Under the pieces are notes generated by a model. It was not told the DNA's origin. It did no database searches and worked only from the letters and a program-made list of their open reading frames with translations. Made by a program: the position numbers and the translations under genes. This document shows positions 1,363 to 39,198 of a DNA stretch of 64,000 nucleotides, piece by piece. Source of the DNA: Bacteroidota bacterium (GTDB lineage: Bacteria > Bacteroidota > Bacteroidia > B-17B0 > Aurantibacillaceae); assembly GCA_020403265.1 (NCBI GenBank), contig JADBXZ010000044.1, forward strand, positions 1 to 64,000, in the 5' to 3' direction. The first letter of the stretch is position 1; each line of letters opens with the position of its first letter.

Positions 1363-1716
1363 TCAATGTTGCCTTTCCCAAACGTACGTTTCACTGAATA
1401 GACCAAAGCAACATGATGCCCTTACTTCAAGCTTGTTTTCATTTATTAACTCAATCGTTGCATCAAAATACTTTTTCACCTTAGGATCATAAATCTGACA
1501 CTTATATTTTCCTTCAAATTTACTAACTGATTTAATAATTTTTACTCCAATATACTTGGGTTCATCGGATTTAATAATTACTCCTTCAAATACATTATTT
1601 TTCATTTCTATTTTTACTACGGAATTATCTAATTCAGTTTTCCAACTTCCTACTAAAGTATTTTCAGAACTATAAGAGAAACAAAAAACTATTGCTAACA
1701 GAAATTGAATTGTCAT
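1363..1716 (-). CDS. DUF2147-like secreted protein
   Basis: 117 residues with a short signal peptide (about residues 1-15) and one small domain. The pattern matches DUF2147 proteins as I know them: an N-terminal GSWKT, a central IYDPKVKKYFDATIEL, then L-x-VRASCCFGLF and a final W-x-R. These are small periplasmic beta proteins of unknown role. The start is the ATG at 1714-1716. It lies between the Crp/Fnr regulator and the membrane protein gene on the same strand. The double Cys (SCC) near the end is a slight oddity. Domain call is from motif recall only. Confidence 0.6.
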   Translation of the reverse strand: MTIQFLLAIVFCFSYSSENTLVGSWKTELDNSVVKIEMKNNVFEGVIIKSDEPKYIGVKIIKSVSKFEGKYKCQIYDPKVKKYFDATIELINENKLEVRASCCFGLFSETYVWERQH

Positions 1717-1791
1717 TATTTTAAACTGTTTTAATATAAGCTCAAAGGTAAATTACCGCAGTAAGAATTACTTTTACATATGTTAAAAACG

Positions 1792-2364
1792 TCAGGACTT
1801 TTTCGTCTGCCTACCTGCTCTGATTCTACTAAGGCTGACTTGAGATATGCCAAGGTATGATGCAATATGACCTAAAGGTATTCGCTGAACAATCTCCGGA
1901 TGTAGTTCTATTAATTCACTGTAACGTTGGGATGCGTCTTTAACTAATAGGTTTTTGTAATAATAATACAATCTTTGAATGATTTCTTCTAGAAATAGAG
2001 CATACCAAACCGCCCATTTATGATTTGTTTTAACAAGATATAAAATGTTGTCCTTACTAATAGATACGACTGAAGAATCTTCAGCACACCGAATATATTG
2101 GTCACATTGTTTATTAAAAAATACACTTTCAATATCTGCGAATGATTGTCCTTCAAATTCATACCAGTTTATTTTTTCGTCTTTGTTTTGAGCGTAAACT
2201 AAGCCAGACAATAGAAAATAGATGTTCTGTGAGTTTGCGTTAGGTTTAACAATACAGTCATTTTTATTAAAGCTTTTGAATACAAATAATTCCGAAGCCA
2301 ATGCAACATCTTTGTCCTGAAGAATGCCTAGTGTCGGAATTATATTTAAGTGTTCTTGCTTCAT
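1792..2364 (-). CDS. Crp/Fnr family transcriptional regulator
   Basis: 190 residues. The N-terminal two thirds is a cyclic-nucleotide-binding-type beta roll (FKSFNKNDCIVKPNANSQNI, then FLLSGLVYAQ). The C-terminus carries a winged helix-turn-helix with IASYLGISQVSLSRIRAG, the recognition-helix pattern of the Bacteroidota Crp subgroup. The residues that contact cAMP in E. coli Crp are not evident, so the ligand is unknown. It heads a minus-strand run of four accessory-looking genes and probably controls them or itself. The inverted GTTAGCGGG repeat lies 12 bases upstream of its start, so its promoter region may have been brought in with the repeat. Confidence 0.85.
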   Translation of the reverse strand: MKQEHLNIIPTLGILQDKDVALASELFVFKSFNKNDCIVKPNANSQNIYFLLSGLVYAQNKDEKINWYEFEGQSFADIESVFFNKQCDQYIRCAEDSSVVSISKDNILYLVKTNHKWAVWYALFLEEIIQRLYYYYKNLLVKDASQRYSELIELHPEIVQRIPLGHIASYLGISQVSLSRIRAGRQTKKS

Positions 2365-2376
2365 TTGTCTACAATG

Positions 2377-2385
2377 CCCGCTAAC
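2377..2385 (-). repeat. GTTAGCGGG repeat, right copy
   Basis: On the minus strand this reads GTTAGCGGGCATTG just before the Crp-like gene, and it is preceded by GGCTTTGTACTGGGTATGAG. It is the inverted partner of the copy at 134-142. Downstream on the plus strand (about 2410-2450) are further TACAAACGCTTACAAGCG repeats of similar flavour. These mark the boundary between the accessory block and the conserved sodA region. Confidence 0.4.
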
Positions 2386-2532
2386 TCCTCATACCCAGTA
2401 CAAAGCCGTTCATAAATACTTACAAACGCTTACAAGCGTTTACAATTATTAATTGGTTTCCTTCTAACAAATATAAACAATTGCCTGATAATTTGAAATA
2501 ACCATCATTCGCATTTACCTTCCTTTCATCCA

Positions 2533-2569
2533 TAAAAAAAACGGCATTTTATTGAATACCGCTTTTTTA
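2533..2569. terminator. Intrinsic terminator after sodA (bidirectional)
   Basis: An A-run followed by CGGCATT, a short loop, then AATACCGC and a T-run. The stem pairs about 12 bases with one G-U and one bulge. The run of six T (A on the other strand) lies on both sides, so it can act in both directions. It sits about 20 bases beyond the sodA stop. Confidence 0.7.
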
Positions 2570-2590
2570 TTAATCTGCTAATGGATTGTA

Positions 2591-3202
2591 TTATTTTTTG
2601 GCCTGTAAATACAATTCGTTAACCTTGTTCCAGTTAATAACGTTAAAAAAAGCACTCATGTAATCCGGACGTCTGTTTTGGTAATTTAAATAATAAGCGT
2701 GTTCCCAAACATCCATGCCTAAAATTGGGGTTCCTTTGCATTCTGCAATGTCCATTAAAGGATTATCCTGATTAGGTGTGCTGCATACGCACAATTTGCC
2801 GTCTTCTTTTACACTTAACCAAGCCCAACCACTTCCAAAACGGGTAGCACCGGCTTGAGCAAAGTCTGTTTTAAACTTTTCAAATCCACCTAACTCAGCT
2901 TCAATGGCTTTCCCCACTTCATTTGTTGGTACACCGCCTGCGTTGGGCGCCATAATTTCCCAAAACAAGGTATGGTTGTAATGCCCGCCACCATTATTTC
3001 TAACAGCCATTGGGTATTTTGAAATGTTTTTACAAATGTCCACAATCGACATTTTTTCTAAGTCTGTACCCGCAGCGGCATTATTAAGGTTTGTAACATA
3101 TGCCTGGTGGTGTTTTCCGTGGTGGATTTCCATGGTTTTTGCATCGATATGCGGTTCTAATGCGTTAAACGCATAATTTAATTTTGGTAATTCAAATGCC
3201 AT
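2591..3202 (-). CDS. sodA: Superoxide dismutase, Mn-type signature
   Basis: Converts superoxide to oxygen and hydrogen peroxide in the cytoplasm. It has 203 residues, the normal length. Metal ligands are visible at H27 (in IHHGKHH), H77 (NHTLFW), D164 and H168 (DVWEHAYY). Q145 in TPNQDNPLM occupies the place of the glutamine typical of Mn enzymes, so Mn or cambialistic use is more likely than strict Fe; this is inference from that residue. It is a single gene with its own terminator. A TAACTTTG -7 element (3222-3229) lies about 20 bases before the start. Confidence 0.95.
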
Positions 3203-32199: not shown

Positions 32200-32667
32200 C
32201 TAATTACGCATCCGTTTTACCTTTTTTAGTTTGGATTTTAACAACCTGCTTTCCTTCTTAATTAAATCTGCTATACTCGTATTAGATAAAATCATTAAAG
32301 TAGATATCCTAACTTCTGTCATCACTTTTTTTATCCCACAGGTAACTTCATCCTCGCAATCAAGACATTTTTCATAAAAATTCAAACTAGCACAAGGTAA
32401 TAATGCAATTGGACCATCCGTTAGTCTAATAACTTCTGTTAGGTATATGTCTGATGGAGATTTTAATAAATAATAGCCTCCATTAGCGCCCATTTTGCTT
32501 CCAAGTAATCCATTTTTTCTTAACTCTAAAAGAATAGCCTCTAAAAACTTTCTCGGTATCTTCCCAACTTCAGAAATTTCAGAAATCCTCATTTGCTCCT
32601 CTTCTGCATTTGTTTTAGCAAGAATCATTAAAGCTTTAATGGCGTACTTGGTTTTCTTGGATAACAT
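32200..32667 (-). CDS. Rrf2 family regulator with a Cys cluster
   Basis: 155 residues. The winged HTH occupies about 1-80 (KKTKYAIKALMILAK, RISEISEVGKIPRKFLEAIL, GANGGYYLLKSP). C92, C101, C104 and C110 (PCASLNFYEKCLDCEDEVTC) are placed where IscR/NsrR members hold a [2Fe-2S] cluster, though the spacing differs from IscR. It is divergent from the sulfate-assimilation operon, as CymR-type Rrf2 regulators of cysteine metabolism often are. It has a perfect consensus promoter at 32682-32712. A role as Fe-S or sulfur-status repressor of the operon is my inference. Confidence 0.88.
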   Translation of the reverse strand: MLSKKTKYAIKALMILAKTNAEEEQMRISEISEVGKIPRKFLEAILLELRKNGLLGSKMGANGGYYLLKSPSDIYLTEVIRLTDGPIALLPCASLNFYEKCLDCEDEVTCGIKKVMTEVRISTLMILSNTSIADLIKKESRLLKSKLKKVKRMRN

Positions 32668-32914: not shown

Positions 32915-32949
32915 TACTCGAATGGTTTTAGAATATATAAATACTTCAA

Positions 32950-32979
32950 ATGCAATGTCAATGTTCATGTGCTGCATGA
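32950..32979 (+). CDS. Leader peptide 1, MQCQCSCAA (cysteine codons)
   Basis: A 9-codon ORF, ATG CAA TGT CAA TGT TCA TGT GCT GCA TGA, with three TGT codons. It lies about 30 bases after the predicted transcription start and is followed by an antiterminator/terminator pair. Its stop overlaps the start of a second mini-ORF as TGATG. Three Cys in nine residues, placed before a cysteine-biosynthesis operon, is the classic design of an amino-acid attenuator leader. I infer that a ribosome slowed at these codons by scarce Cys-tRNA leaves the antiterminator arm free. Confidence 0.75.
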   Translation: MQCQCSCAA

Positions 32980-32996
32980 TGCAACGATGTTGTTAA
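32979..32996 (+). CDS. Leader peptide 2, MQRCC
   Basis: A 5-codon ORF (ATG CAA CGA TGT TGT TAA) starting within the stop of leader peptide 1 (TGATG overlap). Its last Cys codon and stop lie inside the antiterminator arm 32991-33000. A ribosome that reaches this stop would cover the arm and let the terminator form. Translation was not observed; the call rests on position and content. Confidence 0.6.
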   Translation: MQRCC

Positions 32997-33050
32997 CGGA
33001 AGTTTATTTATAAAATAATAGCCCCTCCGTTAACATGGTGGGGCTTTTTT
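32991..33050 (+). terminator. Cysteine attenuator: antiterminator and intrinsic terminator
   Basis: Arm 1, TGTTAACGGA (32991-33000), is perfectly complementary to arm 2, TCCGTTAACA (33026-33035). The terminator stem is AGCCCC (33020-33025) with GGGGCT (33040-33045), strengthened by an inner CC/GG, and ends in six T (33045-33050). Arm 2 lies in the terminator loop, so the two structures exclude each other. Together with the upstream Cys codons, this gives transcription attenuation that opens the operon when charged Cys-tRNA is low. The first gene starts 24 bases after the T-run. Confidence 0.8.
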
Positions 33051-33949: not shown

Positions 33950-36073
33950 ATGCAAAGTTTTAGAACAGAATTAGAACTAGTTAATCATTCAACCAAAGCA
34001 CTAGTTGAGAAGGATATTATTGAGTTAGATAAAAAGATTAAGGAATACCATGCTGGTAAGTTACCTGACGAAAAATTCAGAAGCTTACGCCTAGCAAGAG
34101 GTGTTTACGGGCAACGCCAACAAGGTGTACAAATGATACGCATCAAATTGCCGTTCGGTAAGGTGAGTACAAAACAATTGTTGCGCATTGCAAATATCAG
34201 CGATGAATATTCAAATGGCAATTTGCATTTAACAACGCGTCAGGATATTCAGATTCATCATGTGAGTTTGGATCGTACCCCTGAGTTATGGGCCAAATTG
34301 GAACAAGATGATATCACCTTACGTGAAGCTTGTGGTAATACGGTAAGAAATGTAACGGCCTCTGCCGAAGCCGGCATCGATCCCAATGAACCATTTGATG
34401 TGTCGCCATATGCGCATGCCGTGTTCAGTTACTTTTTACGTAAGCCTTTTGGGCAAGAGCTTGGTCGTAAAATAAAGATCGCATTTTCAAATAGTGACAA
34501 AGATACTGCTGTAACTTACATACATGATATTGGTTTTATTCCAAAGATCAATGCGCAAAACGAAAGAGGTTTTAAAGTGTTGATTGGCGGTGGCTTAGGT
34601 GCACAGCCGTTTTTAGCGCAGGTAGCTTATGAATTTTTACAGGAGAACAAACTGATACCATTTATTGAATCAAGTATTCGCGTGTTTGATAGATATGGCG
34701 AACGCGTAAGCAGACATAAAGCGCGTATCAAATACCTGATCAATAAAATTGGCGTTGAAGCATTTTTGAATCTGATCAAGGAAGAAGAAAAAGCACTTTT
34801 AAATAAAACGGTTGAAATTGATTTGGATACAGTAAAGGTTCTTCCTCAATTAAAAAAGACATTACCTTTTGAAAGACCATTAATTGAAAGTGAACAATTT
34901 GTAAAATGGTTAAAGACCAACACCTTCAAGCAAAAACAAAAAGGTTACCATGGTGTATACGTTAAAATTCAATTAGGAAATATTTCGTCATCCAAAACGA
35001 GAGATCTTATTCAAGTGATCGAGCAATTTGCTTTATCATCAGATGTTCGCTTAACGATCAATCAAGGTGTTTTATTGAAATATGTTTCTACCGAAGAATT
35101 ACCTTTTTTATTTGAGGCATTAAATAAATTGAATTTAGCAAGCGTTGGTTTTGATTCAGTAGCAGATATAACAGCATGCCCCGGAACCGACACCTGTAAT
35201 TTGGCAATTTCTAACAGTACAAATATATCGGTAAAGTTAGAAGAGGTTATTTATAATGAGTTTCCTGATCTGATTTATGACCGTGATATTAAAATAAAAA
35301 TTAGTGGCTGTATGAATTCTTGCGGTCAGCATGGCTTGGCACAAATTGGTTTTCATGGCAGTTCATTTAAAGTAGGAACAACTGTTGTGCCTGCATTACA
35401 AGTTTTGTTAGGCGGTGGAACATTAGGAGATGGAAAAGGACGCATTGCTGAGAAAGTGATCAAGGTGGCAAGTAAACGTGCGCCGGATGTACTTCGATCG
35501 CTATTCAATGATTTTGAAAAAAATGCAAGTGACGGTGAGTATTTCAATTCTTATTACGACCGAAAGGGAAAAGACTATTTCTATCAATTACTAAAGCCAA
35601 TTGGTGACAATTCAAATTTAACAGAAGATGAATTTTATGATTGGGGTTCAGAAGAACGCTTTAAGACCGAGATTGGCGTAGGCGAATGTGCTGGGGTGAT
35701 CATAGATCTTGTTCAAACCCTATTTTTTGAGGCGGAAGAGAAATTAGCATGGAGTGCAGAAGCTTTTGATAACAAACAATTTGGCGATAGTATCTATTAT
35801 TCATACGCAGCATTTATTCATGCGGCTAAAGGGTTGTTGTTGAATGGCGGTTTTCATGTGAACACACACCACGCATTGATCAATGATTTTGAAAAGCAGT
35901 TTGTTGAAACGGGGTCATTTGTTTCATTCAAGGAATTAGTATTACAAATAAATAAGAACGAACCCTCTGAGGAATTTGCTGCCAAGTATTTTAATGAAGC
36001 AAAACTATTTTTAAACGAAGTAAAAGCATACAGAGAAAAAATTAGTGCAAACACTTTTGAAACAGTAAAATGA
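33950..36073 (+). CDS. cysI: Sulfite reductase hemoprotein with C-terminal HEPN-like extension
   Basis: 707 residues. It reduces sulfite to sulfide with siroheme and a [4Fe-4S] cluster. The two ferredoxin-like nitrite/sulfite reductase half domains and the siroheme domains are present (VKIQLGNISSS, TTRQDIQIHH). The cluster ligands are C410, C416, C454 and C458 (CPGTDTC and SGCMNSCGQH). Residues about 570-707 form an additional helical domain (SAEAFDNKQFGDSIYYSYAA) resembling HEPN; this extension recurs in Bacteroidota homologues. No CysJ is present. Its stop overlaps the start of the third leader peptide (ATGA). Confidence 0.92.
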   Translation: MQSFRTELELVNHSTKALVEKDIIELDKKIKEYHAGKLPDEKFRSLRLARGVYGQRQQGVQMIRIKLPFGKVSTKQLLRIANISDEYSNGNLHLTTRQDIQIHHVSLDRTPELWAKLEQDDITLREACGNTVRNVTASAEAGIDPNEPFDVSPYAHAVFSYFLRKPFGQELGRKIKIAFSNSDKDTAVTYIHDIGFIPKINAQNERGFKVLIGGGLGAQPFLAQVAYEFLQENKLIPFIESSIRVFDRYGERVSRHKARIKYLINKIGVEAFLNLIKEEEKALLNKTVEIDLDTVKVLPQLKKTLPFERPLIESEQFVKWLKTNTFKQKQKGYHGVYVKIQLGNISSSKTRDLIQVIEQFALSSDVRLTINQGVLLKYVSTEELPFLFEALNKLNLASVGFDSVADITACPGTDTCNLAISNSTNISVKLEEVIYNEFPDLIYDRDIKIKISGCMNSCGQHGLAQIGFHGSSFKVGTTVVPALQVLLGGGTLGDGKGRIAEKVIKVASKRAPDVLRSLFNDFEKNASDGEYFNSYYDRKGKDYFYQLLKPIGDNSNLTEDEFYDWGSEERFKTEIGVGECAGVIIDLVQTLFFEAEEKLAWSAEAFDNKQFGDSIYYSYAAFIHAAKGLLLNGGFHVNTHHALINDFEKQFVETGSFVSFKELVLQINKNEPSEEFAAKYFNEAKLFLNEVKAYREKISANTFETVK

Positions 36074-36144
36074 AAAAGAATTTCTACATCTATATTAAAT
36101 ACGATTATTGTTGTTGCTGTATGATAATGCCATGCTTGGCATAA
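36070..36144 (+). CDS. Leader peptide 3, 24 codons with four consecutive Cys
   Basis: A short ORF beginning MKKNFYIYIKYDY, with Cys codons 14-17 in a row (TGT TGT TGC TGT, 36109-36120) and a fifth Cys at codon 22 (36133-36135). The ATG overlaps the cysI stop as ATGA, so it is translated by coupling. The last codons form the left arm of a strong hairpin, and a competing hairpin follows. A stalled ribosome at the Cys run would choose between them. I infer a second cysteine sensor controlling the genes from the methyltransferase onward. I know of no described case of this layout. Confidence 0.75.
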   Translation: MKKNFYIYIKYDYCCCCMIMPCLA

Positions 36145-36186
36145 CTTTTCCCCGGTTATGCTAAGCGGAACCAAAGTATAACGGGG
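36133..36186 (+). promoter_or_regulatory. Two mutually exclusive hairpins after leader peptide 3
   Basis: Hairpin A: TGCTTGGCATAAC (36133-36145) with GTTATGCTAAGCG (36155-36167), 13 pairs including two G-U. Hairpin B: CCCCG-TTAT (36150-36159, one bulged G) with ATAACGGGG (36178-36186), nine pairs. They share bases 36155-36159, so both cannot form. There is no T-run after B, so it is not an intrinsic terminator. It more likely acts on translation of the next gene, on RNA stability, or on Rho access. Confidence 0.65.
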
Positions 36187-36221
36187 ATAAAAAATTATCA
36201 AACAACTAAAAAAATACAATA

Positions 36222-36992
36222 ATGAAAAAAGAAATATATCCAAAATTAACAGTAGTAGGCGCCGGTCCGGGCGACCCAGAATTGATCACCGTTAAAGCTA
36301 TCAATGCTTTAAGCGAGGCCGATGTGATTTTATATGATGCATTGGTAAACAAAGAACTTTTAAAATACGCACCAATAGATGCCTTAAAAATATACGTTGG
36401 TAAGCGTAAGAATAAACATGAGTATACCCAAGAACAAATAAATAATTTGATCGTTGATCTTGCATTTACGCACGGAAGGGTAGTAAGATTAAAGGGCGGT
36501 GATCCGTTTGTATTTGGAAGAGGGAGTGAAGAGATCCAATTTGCGGATGCCTTTAATATTGAAACAGCCATAGTGCCGGGCATAAGTAGCTCTATTGGTG
36601 TGCCGGGGGCAAGCGGCATTCCGGTAACACACCGAGGTATTAGCGAAAGCTTTTGGGTAATAACTGCCACCAAGCAAAATGGCGAATTATCACAAGATAT
36701 ATATGATGCAGCTAAAACAAATGCAACCTTAGTGATCTTGATGGGCTTAAATAAATTGCAGCAGATCACGAGTATTTTTTCGAATGCAGGAAAAGTAAAC
36801 ACACCGGTTGCGGTTATTCAAAACGGAACGCTGGCAACCGAGAATGTTGCTATTGGCACTATTGATACAATAGTTAACGAGGTAAAAGAGCAGAATATAA
36901 AATCACCTGCTATTATTGTCATTGGCGATGTAGTTAAGTTTCATAAATATTATGAATCAGTTGGTTCACATATCAATTATTCGTTGAATTAG
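36222..36992 (+). CDS. cobA: Uroporphyrinogen-III C-methyltransferase
   Basis: 256 residues. It methylates uroporphyrinogen III twice with SAM to precorrin-2 for siroheme, the CysI cofactor. Motifs are VVGAGPGDPELITVKAI at the N-terminus, VRLKGGDPFVFGRGSEE, VPGISSSIGVPGASGIPVTHRG and ATLVILMGLNKL. Single-domain CobA type, not fused to CysG. It is separated from cysI by the third leader peptide and hairpins, and its expression may be controlled there. GATC-rich composition like its neighbours. Confidence 0.93.
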   Translation: MKKEIYPKLTVVGAGPGDPELITVKAINALSEADVILYDALVNKELLKYAPIDALKIYVGKRKNKHEYTQEQINNLIVDLAFTHGRVVRLKGGDPFVFGRGSEEIQFADAFNIETAIVPGISSSIGVPGASGIPVTHRGISESFWVITATKQNGELSQDIYDAAKTNATLVILMGLNKLQQITSIFSNAGKVNTPVAVIQNGTLATENVAIGTIDTIVNEVKEQNIKSPAIIVIGDVVKFHKYYESVGSHINYSLN

Positions 36993-36998
36993 TAAAAA

Positions 36999-37724
36999 GT
37001 GAAGAAACGTTTTTTCATATTATTAATGTTGGCAACACGCATCTCTTTTTCACAAAAAAGTGAGGGTGAAACTTATGCCATGTATTGGGCTGGTTATTAT
37101 AATACAACCCAACTTCATTCAAAATGGAGCATCAACACGGATATCCAACATCGCACAAAGAATGGATATGAGATTCAGGCACAATCACTCATAAGGTCCT
37201 CTCTTGCTTATAAAATAAACGGATCCATTCAGTTAAGTACCGGATTGGCGCATTTCCGACATTTTATAACGAATCAATTGAACAGGGGTGAATGGCGACC
37301 ATGGCAAGAAGTATCTGCAACACAAGAGCATGATAAATTAAAGTTCATCAATAAATTGAGAGTAGAGCAACGTTTTAATCAAACTGTTTATCAAGATGCC
37401 TTAACAAATAATTATGTTTTCAATTGGCGATTCAGATACAGGTTTGAAATAGAGATGGATTTATTTAAACAACGCACACATATGCATTCGTTTAATGTTG
37501 GTAACGAATTCATGATCAATGCTGCCAGATCAATTGGAAATCCATTCGATCAAAACAGATCCTATGTTTCCTATAATTATCAGTTAACTGATAATATCAA
37601 GTTACAATTGCAATACATGTATATCATTCAATACATCGCATCACGAACAAATTACGATCATGTTTCAGTGATCAGATTTAATTTATATCATACAATAAAT
37701 AATGAGCACTCCAGCAACAAATAA
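36999..37724 (+). CDS. DUF2490 outer-membrane protein
   Basis: 241 residues, GTG start. A signal peptide (about 1-18) is followed by the DUF2490 pattern of an all-beta barrel: AMYWAGYYNTTQLHSKWSIN, RSSLAYKINGSIQLSTGLAH, WQEVSATQEHDKLKFINKLRVEQRF. The family has no known function. It sits inside the sulfate-assimilation operon, 6 bases after cobA, and overlaps the next gene by 23 bases. A role in sulfate or siderophore-like uptake is possible but not shown. Confidence 0.8.
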   Translation: MKKRFFILLMLATRISFSQKSEGETYAMYWAGYYNTTQLHSKWSINTDIQHRTKNGYEIQAQSLIRSSLAYKINGSIQLSTGLAHFRHFITNQLNRGEWRPWQEVSATQEHDKLKFINKLRVEQRFNQTVYQDALTNNYVFNWRFRYRFEIEMDLFKQRTHMHSFNVGNEFMINAARSIGNPFDQNRSYVSYNYQLTDNIKLQLQYMYIIQYIASRTNYDHVSVIRFNLYHTINNEHSSNK

Positions 37725-39198
37725 TCTTTTCCCGGTTTTTTTAAAACTTGAGAACCTTAACGTGTTGTTAGTAGGTGGCGGAGTTATTGCGCATGAGAAA
37801 TTATCTGCGATCTTGAATAATAGTCCGCAAACAAAGGTTAAGCTCGTTGCGGAAAGCATCAGTGAAGAGATCAGGCAATTGGCGGCAAAGAATACCTCTG
37901 TTGAATTAAATGAGCGAAAATACATAAAAAGTGACCTTGCTAAAATGAATGTAGCAATTGCGGCAGTGGGTGATAAGAAGTTAAGTGAAGCCATCAGAAA
38001 TGATGCCAAGGCAGCCGGTGTTTTAATCAATGCAGCAGATAAACCTGAACTGTGTGATTTTTACTTGGGTTCTATTGTTCAAAAAGGCGACCTGAAAATT
38101 GCAATATCAACCAATGGTAAATCGCCAACAATGGCCAAGCGTATAAAAGAAACTTTGAATGATGTTTTCCCGGAGGAAACGCAAGAGGTTTTAGAGAATT
38201 TATATACGATCCGCGAGAACTTAAAAGGCAACTTCGACCATAAGGTAAAAACGCTTAATCACATCACACGTGAATTATCGATACCTAAGGAAAAACCAAA
38301 TTTATCAAAACGAATCAGAGTTGCGGTTTTTTATTCCTTGGCTGTAATTACATTAATGATCTTTGGTCATCTCATTTTGTCTTACGTGCCTGTGCAAAAC
38401 ATTTATGATGTATGGTCTGCCATTACAAGTAATGTGGATTCCAATTTTATGCTTTTTGTTGCCGGAGGGTTTATTGCGCAAATGATCGATGGCGCACTTG
38501 GAATGGCATATGGTGTGAGTGTTACTACTTTTTTATTGAGTTTAGGTATCCCTGCTATTTCTCCGGCTGTTGCCAGTGCAAGTATGCATGCTTCAGAAAT
38601 ATTTACAACAGGTTCATCGAGCTTAGTGTATATGAGGTATAAGAACATCAATAAAAAACTCTTTAAAAAATTAGTGTGGCCTGGTATTTTTGGCGCGGTT
38701 TTAGGAGCAGCATCGGTATCTTTTGTGAGCAAGGAAAATATTGCCTGGATAAAACCGTTAGTGGCTGCATATACCCTTATACTGGGTTCATTGATCGTAA
38801 TTCGCGCATTGAATATTCAACTGCGAAAAAAAGAGAAGATCCGGAAAATATTTCCGGTGGCATTGATCGGTGGTTATCTAGATTCTGTTGGCGGCGGTGG
38901 ATGGGGCCCTATAGTTACAACATCTTTAGTTGCTGGAGGCCGACATTTACGTTATTCGATCGGCTCATCTCATTTAGCAAAGTTCTTTGTAGCCTTGATA
39001 AGCACCATCACATTTTTTTTAATAATAGGTTTAAGTCATTGGCAGATCATATTTGGTTTGGTTATTGGTGGGATGATCGCTGCGCCAATTTCCATCTACC
39101 TATCAAACAAGATCCCAACAAAAAAAGGATTGATACTCGTTGGCACTTTAGTAATACTCATTAGTTTAAAAACAATTTTACAAACATTATTAAAATAA
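37702..39198 (+). CDS. Siroheme synthase-type dehydrogenase fused to a TauE/SafE exporter
   Basis: 498 residues. The N-terminal 190 residues form the NAD-binding precorrin-2 dehydrogenase/ferrochelatase domain (VLLVGGGVIAHEKLSAIL, LINAADKPELCDFYLGSIV). Residues about 205-498 are a TauE/SafE (TSUP) membrane domain with about 8-9 helices (GGFIAQMIDGALGMAYGVS, SVGGGGWGPIVTTSLVAGG). It joins cofactor synthesis to sulfite or sulfate movement across the membrane. I have seen this fusion annotated in other Bacteroidota. It overlaps the DUF2490 gene by 23 bases and is followed 1 base later by the flavin reductase. Confidence 0.88.
   Translation: MSTPATNNLFPVFLKLENLNVLLVGGGVIAHEKLSAILNNSPQTKVKLVAESISEEIRQLAAKNTSVELNERKYIKSDLAKMNVAIAAVGDKKLSEAIRNDAKAAGVLINAADKPELCDFYLGSIVQKGDLKIAISTNGKSPTMAKRIKETLNDVFPEETQEVLENLYTIRENLKGNFDHKVKTLNHITRELSIPKEKPNLSKRIRVAVFYSLAVITLMIFGHLILSYVPVQNIYDVWSAITSNVDSNFMLFVAGGFIAQMIDGALGMAYGVSVTTFLLSLGIPAISPAVASASMHASEIFTTGSSSLVYMRYKNINKKLFKKLVWPGIFGAVLGAASVSFVSKENIAWIKPLVAAYTLILGSLIVIRALNIQLRKKEKIRKIFPVALIGGYLDSVGGGGWGPIVTTSLVAGGRHLRYSIGSSHLAKFFVALISTITFFLIIGLSHWQIIFGLVIGGMIAAPISIYLSNKIPTKKGLILVGTLVILISLKTILQTLLK

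Follow-up and report, generated by a model that had tools for sequence, protein, structure and literature searches.

The LEU element of actinobacterial leuA comprises a codon run, a pseudoknot and a base stem that reaches the start region (Seliverstov et al. 2005, PMC1262725); since mutating the codons was without effect, its authors questioned whether it works through leader translation. The intra-operonic element described here, leader 2, resembles it in having a leader ORF with regulatory codons, a pseudoknot or alternative hairpin, in some loci a base stem between codon run and target start, and no terminator. The LEU element, however, concerns leucine, belongs to Actinobacteria and lies 5′ of its operon, whereas leader 2 has cysteine codons and lies inside its operon, and pairing with the start region is not a constant feature of it.

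Mycobacterial poly-Cys leaderless sORFs were reportedly described by Canestrari et al. in 2020. Summaries in two papers present such sORFs as cysteine-responsive attenuators of cys genes (PMC9031893, PMC13236596), and mycobacterial cys operon leaders have no obvious terminator (PMC1262725). As summarised there, the mycobacterial type shares with leader 2 the consecutive Cys codons in a uORF before sulfur genes and the lack of an intrinsic terminator. The mycobacterial sORFs are placed there at mRNA 5′ ends, whereas leader 2 is internal and coupled to cysI, with covarying stems (S1 and S2) and a separate terminator-type leader upstream; it is not leaderless at an mRNA 5′ end, since its uORF overlaps the cysI stop codon. 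As described in these sources, neither the LEU element nor the mycobacterial uORF is operon-internal or second in series.

In classical attenuators (trp, his) the position of the ribosome on regulatory codons picks the hairpin, and an intrinsic terminator is the defining part. The first leader of the present operon, leader 1, is of this kind, whereas leader 2 has no such terminator. uORFC-8-2 before cysS of Rhodobacterales (PMC8632094), with its ribosome-positioned hairpin choice, belongs with the classical attenuators. Few leader attenuators have been studied so far in Bacteroidota; for one member of this phylum, Flavobacterium psychrophilum, leader-peptide attenuators have been predicted 5′ of amino-acid biosynthetic operons, and the excerpt describing them contains no internal leader and no cysteine case (PMC9723704). 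To the preliminary description the layout of leader 2, an internal and translationally coupled Cys sensor, would be new. An intra-operonic Cys leader standing second in series was indeed not found in the open-access literature, which is weak evidence of absence, but the terminator-less poly-Cys uORF and the combination of codon run, pseudoknot and base stem are both known from Actinobacteria (PMC1262725), so that leader 2 varies a known principle and does not introduce a new one.

The cys operon and its front leader

The window (the whole 64,000-nt stretch of DNA analysed) contains an assimilatory sulfate-reduction operon in the order aldo/keto reductase, cysI, cobA and an ORF at 36999, with further genes following (table 1). 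Its downstream part comprises a CysG-N/TauE fusion, a thioredoxin-reductase-like flavoprotein, cysH, cysD and cysN. The spacing between cysI and cobA is 148 nt. The fusion gene (37702–39198) joins a siroheme synthase N-terminal domain (CysG-N) to a TauE/SafE sulfite exporter domain, and the C-terminus of cysI (residues 589–663) has a weak match to the HEPN domain. An Rrf2-like regulator gene with clustered cysteines adjoins the operon on the minus strand (32200–32667), and a relative of it lies beside the operon in many related genomes.

Table 1. Features of the cys operon discussed in the text (window coordinates)
Feature	Position	Strand	Basis or remark
Leader 1 ORF (MVLEYINTSNAMSMFMCCMMQRCC), operon front	32922–32996	+	Exact start codon uncertain
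Leader 1 attenuator: antiterminator (32991–33000/33026–33035) versus terminator hairpin (33017–33048) and T-run	32991–33048	+	
cysI-like assimilatory sulfite reductase, NirA/SIR family (NirA-type; named cysI here)	33950–36073	+	Weak HEPN match at C-terminus
Leader 2 ORF (MKKNFYIYIKYDYCCCCMIMPCLA), 24 codons and TAA	36070–36144	+	ATGA overlap with cysI stop (36073)
Four Cys codons, TGT TGT TGC TGT	36109–36120	+	Conserved in relatives
Stem S1 (A), 36133–36146 with 36154–36167	36133–36167	+	Covariation in relatives
Stem S2 (B), 36146–36154 with 36182–36190, 8 of 9 paired	36146–36190	+	Fold prediction
cobA initiation region; in the free-state fold part of it complements the Cys-codon run	36190–36227	+	Fold prediction
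cobA, uroporphyrinogen-III C-methyltransferase (siroheme), presumed target	36222–36992	+	TIGR01469 above cutoff

The preliminary description placed leader 2 second in the operon, and an ordinary Cys leader was found at the operon front (32922–33048). This Cys/Met-rich leader 1, conserved across the family with its antiterminator and terminator, also precedes the operon in 23 relatives, and at 23 of 24 loci a GC hairpin with a U-run comes after it. Because repeated Met codons stand beside its Cys codons, leader 1 may respond to Met as well as Cys. Other families of this class likewise have similar Cys-rich leaders 5′ of the operon (L110, L111).

The terminator scan used for leader 1 gave five weak matches in 22 leader 2 junctions, with short or interrupted T-tracts, and an intrinsic terminator at the cysI–cobA junction was thereby rejected, except possibly in L002, where a U6 tract lies within the S2 3′ arm. 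The window has no T-run 3′ of S2, as had been noted before. Terminators that are nearly constant at leader 1 and rare at leader 2 point to a device at leader 2 that differs from the ordinary transcription attenuator preceding it. The Bacteroidota promoter motif TAnnTTTG is absent from all 22 junctions, so leader 2 is without an internal promoter of that type.

It is our view, held with slightly better than even confidence, that leader 2 is an attenuator within the cys operon that responds to cysteine and controls cobA, without an intrinsic terminator and probably acting on translation. Most likely the leader and its hairpins allow the cell to match the making of siroheme to the cysteine available. 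A serious rival, which we nevertheless consider unlikely, is control of transcription elongation, in which the stalled ribosome or S1 would prevent Rho-dependent (or unusual) termination in the cysI–cobA spacer and would thus govern cobA and all later cys genes together. The spacers of L022, L013 and L116 are C-rich, G-poor and hairpin-free, as Rho sites often are, the U6 tract of L002 would fit, and Rho-dependent termination has been proposed for mycobacterial cys leaders (PMC1262725). However, C-richness is not conserved, the intrinsic terminator typical of leader 1 is missing from nearly all leader 2 loci, and Rho alone leaves the conservation of S1 and S2 unexplained.

Leader 2 at cysI–cobA junctions

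The 24-codon ORF, its overlap with the cysI stop codon and the four Cys codons given in the preliminary description are all present in the window, as is a fifth Cys codon (36133–36135). The motif TGYTGYTGYTGY occurs once in the window, against 0.09 expected, and 56 times in the whole genome in any frame; the motif alone is therefore weak and the case rests on conservation. Other CCCC stretches in this genome were considered as leaders and set aside, those inspected mostly lacking a start codon and having no tie to sulfur genes. Matches to TGYTGYATGATAATG elsewhere in the family were likewise discarded as further copies, the inspected ones being in or across unrelated reading frames and not at cys genes.

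Junctions were collected via CobA from the order, which is represented in the collection by one family only (87 genomes). cobA is present in 32 genomes, and 30 junctions were read, leaving out L008, in which a contig end cuts the junction, and G108. A poly-Cys leader (at least three consecutive Cys codons) was found at 21 of the 30 junctions in the window's family, while eight had neither leader nor stems and mostly short gaps. One locus, L040, keeps both stems with a degenerate or lost Cys run; the run is thus retained in 21/22 elements. The converse, a Cys run without comparable hairpins, is seen in L013, L022, L116 and L118. Related loci are not independent, and the real units are clades. 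Loss of the poly-Cys ORF and stems while the neighbouring genes persist would have spoken against the element, and a check for it found leader and stems conserved in relatives.

Divergence at codon positions 1, 2 and 3 was 0.19, 0.21 and 0.46, respectively, over the seven codons 5′ of the Cys run, and this excess at position 3 indicates that the leader 2 frame is translated. In most loci the leader starts −7 to +3 nt from the cysI stop codon, a geometry that bears out the proposed translational coupling to cysI. Nine bases 3′ of the Cys run, ATGATAATG (window 36121–36129), are almost unchanged within a clade and occupy the same place in L002–L007, L010, L036, L037, L039–L041 and L043; TATGATAA appears in family f21 in another reading frame.

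Outside the family, two further families have a poly-Cys leader at this junction, each in a single genome (L116, L118), without clear hairpins. A third, the neighbouring f21, has a related ORF (MKTQFKHHIKFGSCWYDNFFK...) that contains one Cys only and overlaps the start of cobA. This conserved small ORF (MKTxFKxHIKFxSCWYDxFFK...; loci L114, L120, L122, L155, L156, L158 and L160) begins near the cysI stop codon, and its product is similar to the poly-Cys leader in the N-terminal half of the latter; no Pfam or NCBIfam match was obtained for the single such ORF tested.

Competing stems beside the Cys run

In the window S1 has a 12-nt core (36134–36145/36155–36166), or 14 bp counting GU ends, and the 9-nt 5′ arm of S2 is the S1 loop, giving a pseudoknot layout. 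A longer form of S2 (about 36149–36162/36175–36187) is part of the minimum free energy structure of the isolated segment and uses the S1 3′ arm. The earlier claim that the two hairpins share bases consequently fails for the 9-nt S2 against the 12-nt S1 core and is correct for the longer S2. The junction fold of the window has a z-score of −3.5. No Rfam 15 family matches the junction at or above gathering score.

S1 beats nearly all dinucleotide shuffles in 20/20 loci. Its covariation comprises compensatory changes at 6 of 11 pairs with 98% paired, matched by none of 500 shuffles. S2, built from the S1 loop and a downstream arm, reaches p<0.05 in 16 of 20 loci, the window's own S2 duplex alone not being significant (p 0.14). 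A separate pseudoknot scan put the stems in the wrong place at a few loci, L011 and L043 among them, and the figures used are those of the later stem scan. Folds lacking S1 are more stable than S1 at 18 of 20 loci, by a mean of 3.8 kcal/mol, and often consist of S2 and an outer stem to the region 10–30 nt 5′ of cobA. The outer stem, with one A-U to U-A exchange, lies within 30 nt of the cobA AUG in many loci. The window is an exception, its S1 being 2.4 kcal/mol better than the alternative. Two competing structures beside the Cys run, without a classical terminator, thus exist as first described, and a LEU-type pseudoknot between leader and target is found across loci. Full coexistence of S1 and S2 is doubtful in some clades, because the modelled S2 is up to 13 bp long with a connecting loop of 0–1 nt.

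According to a figure quoted in PMC4833913, a ribosome shields about 12 nt beyond the codon that it is reading. S1 begins 12–16 nt past the last Cys codon in 19/20 loci, though its sequence differs among clades, and the leader stop codon lies −4 to +9 nt from the S1 start, also in 19/20. With this spacing S1 would be free to fold downstream of a ribosome stalled on the Cys codons and blocked once the ribosome is at the stop codon, so the geometry ties S1 to whether the ribosome is held on the Cys run, as the preliminary description supposed. Structure prediction and covariation together indicate mutually exclusive stems that would be positioned by the ribosome.

A dispersed REP-like repeat (CTGAGCGNAGTCGAAG) has 52 copies in the window's genome. 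This repeat or its relatives lie inside the switch region of L002, L003, L007 and L039, and in diverged form in the window (36155–36183); in L002 and L003 it makes up the S1 3′ arm with S1 pairing kept. Such repeats are central to the least probable of the explanations considered, that the element is not regulatory. The ORF would then be left over from a coupling peptide, and the hairpins, as REP-like repeats or mRNA stability elements, would fix the ratio of cysI to cobA. In L002, L003 and the window REP-like sequence forms part of the S1 3′ arm or of what follows it; this, the single Cys of the f21 ORF and the stems of L040 without a Cys run would all agree with such a reading. Retention of the Cys run in all elements but one argues against it, as does a Cys-to-S1 spacing that is fixed although the S1 sequences are unrelated; moreover, S1 pairing is maintained with or without REP sequence, and most loci have no REP similarity.

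The cobA initiation region and the direction of control

In the attenuator that we favour, ribosomes ending cysI would reinitiate at the overlapping leader 2. When Cys-tRNA is scarce, the ribosome would wait on the CCCC run and leave the S1 5′ arm free, S1 would form first, and the cobA initiation region would stay open (ON). When cysteine is plentiful, the ribosome would reach the stop codon, at or inside the S1 5′ arm, so that S1 is blocked and S2 forms; after ribosome release the freed upstream strand would pair near the cobA start (OFF). This strand would be the S1 5′ arm in some lineages and the Cys-codon run in others, the latter weakly in the window.

Pairing of the initiation region was compared with shuffles, with partners swapped between loci and with the start regions of 320 other genes. 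In 9 of the 20 loci it exceeds that of these genes (p<0.05), through one of two alternative partners: the S1 5′ arm in L012, L014, L016, L018, L041 and L043, and the Cys-codon run in L002, L010 and L039. In the latter three the base stem between Cys-codon run and cobA start region is clear; other loci have no such stem, and there the S1 5′ arm may take over the pairing. Elsewhere the excess is weak, including in the window (p 0.04 against shuffles; p 0.24 against initiation regions of other genes, i.e. not stronger). A universal pairing with the cobA initiation region is thus only partly supported, own pairs not being consistently better than swapped pairs. In L004, L036 and L037 the outer stem lies 46–119 nt upstream of the cobA start and therefore cannot mask it; masking of the start is accordingly regarded as likely, but not as a general property of all loci.

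Opening the initiation region costs a mean of 5.6 kcal/mol with the leader ribosome-free, against 2.9 and 2.0 kcal/mol in the constrained folds. The lowest value belongs to a ribosome at the leader stop codon, when the start region is most open in one group of loci. Taken at face value, this would suit the opposite direction of control, with ribosomes at the leader stop keeping the cobA start open and Cys stalling turning cobA off, for example to spare SAM during sulfur shortage. In L012, L014, L016, L018, L041 and L043 a ribosome on the Cys run does leave the start region more closed, and the overlap of the f21 ORF with the cobA start would be plain coupling. We regard this direction as quite improbable: its sign is unexpected for a biosynthetic gene and would work against leader 1 of the same operon, and in L001, L002, L003, L007, L010 and L011 the stalled state is far more open than the free state. 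Since the start region is at equilibrium most open with the ribosome at the stop codon, the favoured ON state under starvation would depend on kinetic arguments, namely co-transcriptional order, together with the logic of a biosynthetic operon. Other observations that sit uneasily with our favoured attenuator are the weak pairing and the S1 preference of the window, the distant outer stems of L004, L036 and L037, the hairpin-less L013, L022, L116 and L118, and the Cys loss in L040.

A broader proposal, for which we put the chances a little below even, is that two serial cysteine sensors have different outputs, a terminator at the operon front and, inside, a pseudoknot-type S1/S2 switch of cobA initiation giving separate graded control of siroheme. 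Here the plain coupling peptide and the regulatory leader would be evolutionary alternatives, as they appear to be because the f21 coupling ORF shares part of the leader 2 peptide. If true, leader-peptide control can sit inside an operon, using ribosomes just off the upstream gene, and a single transcript answers to two sensors of one amino acid. Some 20 natural variants, which differ in having or lacking hairpins and Cys run and one of which has both leaders immediately 5′ of cobA, make the mechanism testable in Bacteroidota. In this last locus, L010 (G022:C20, about 1430–3015; also L086), an Rrf2 gene is followed by leader 1 and its terminator, then leader 2 and its stem, then cobA, so that both Cys leaders stand in tandem directly 5′ of cobA with no cysI between them.
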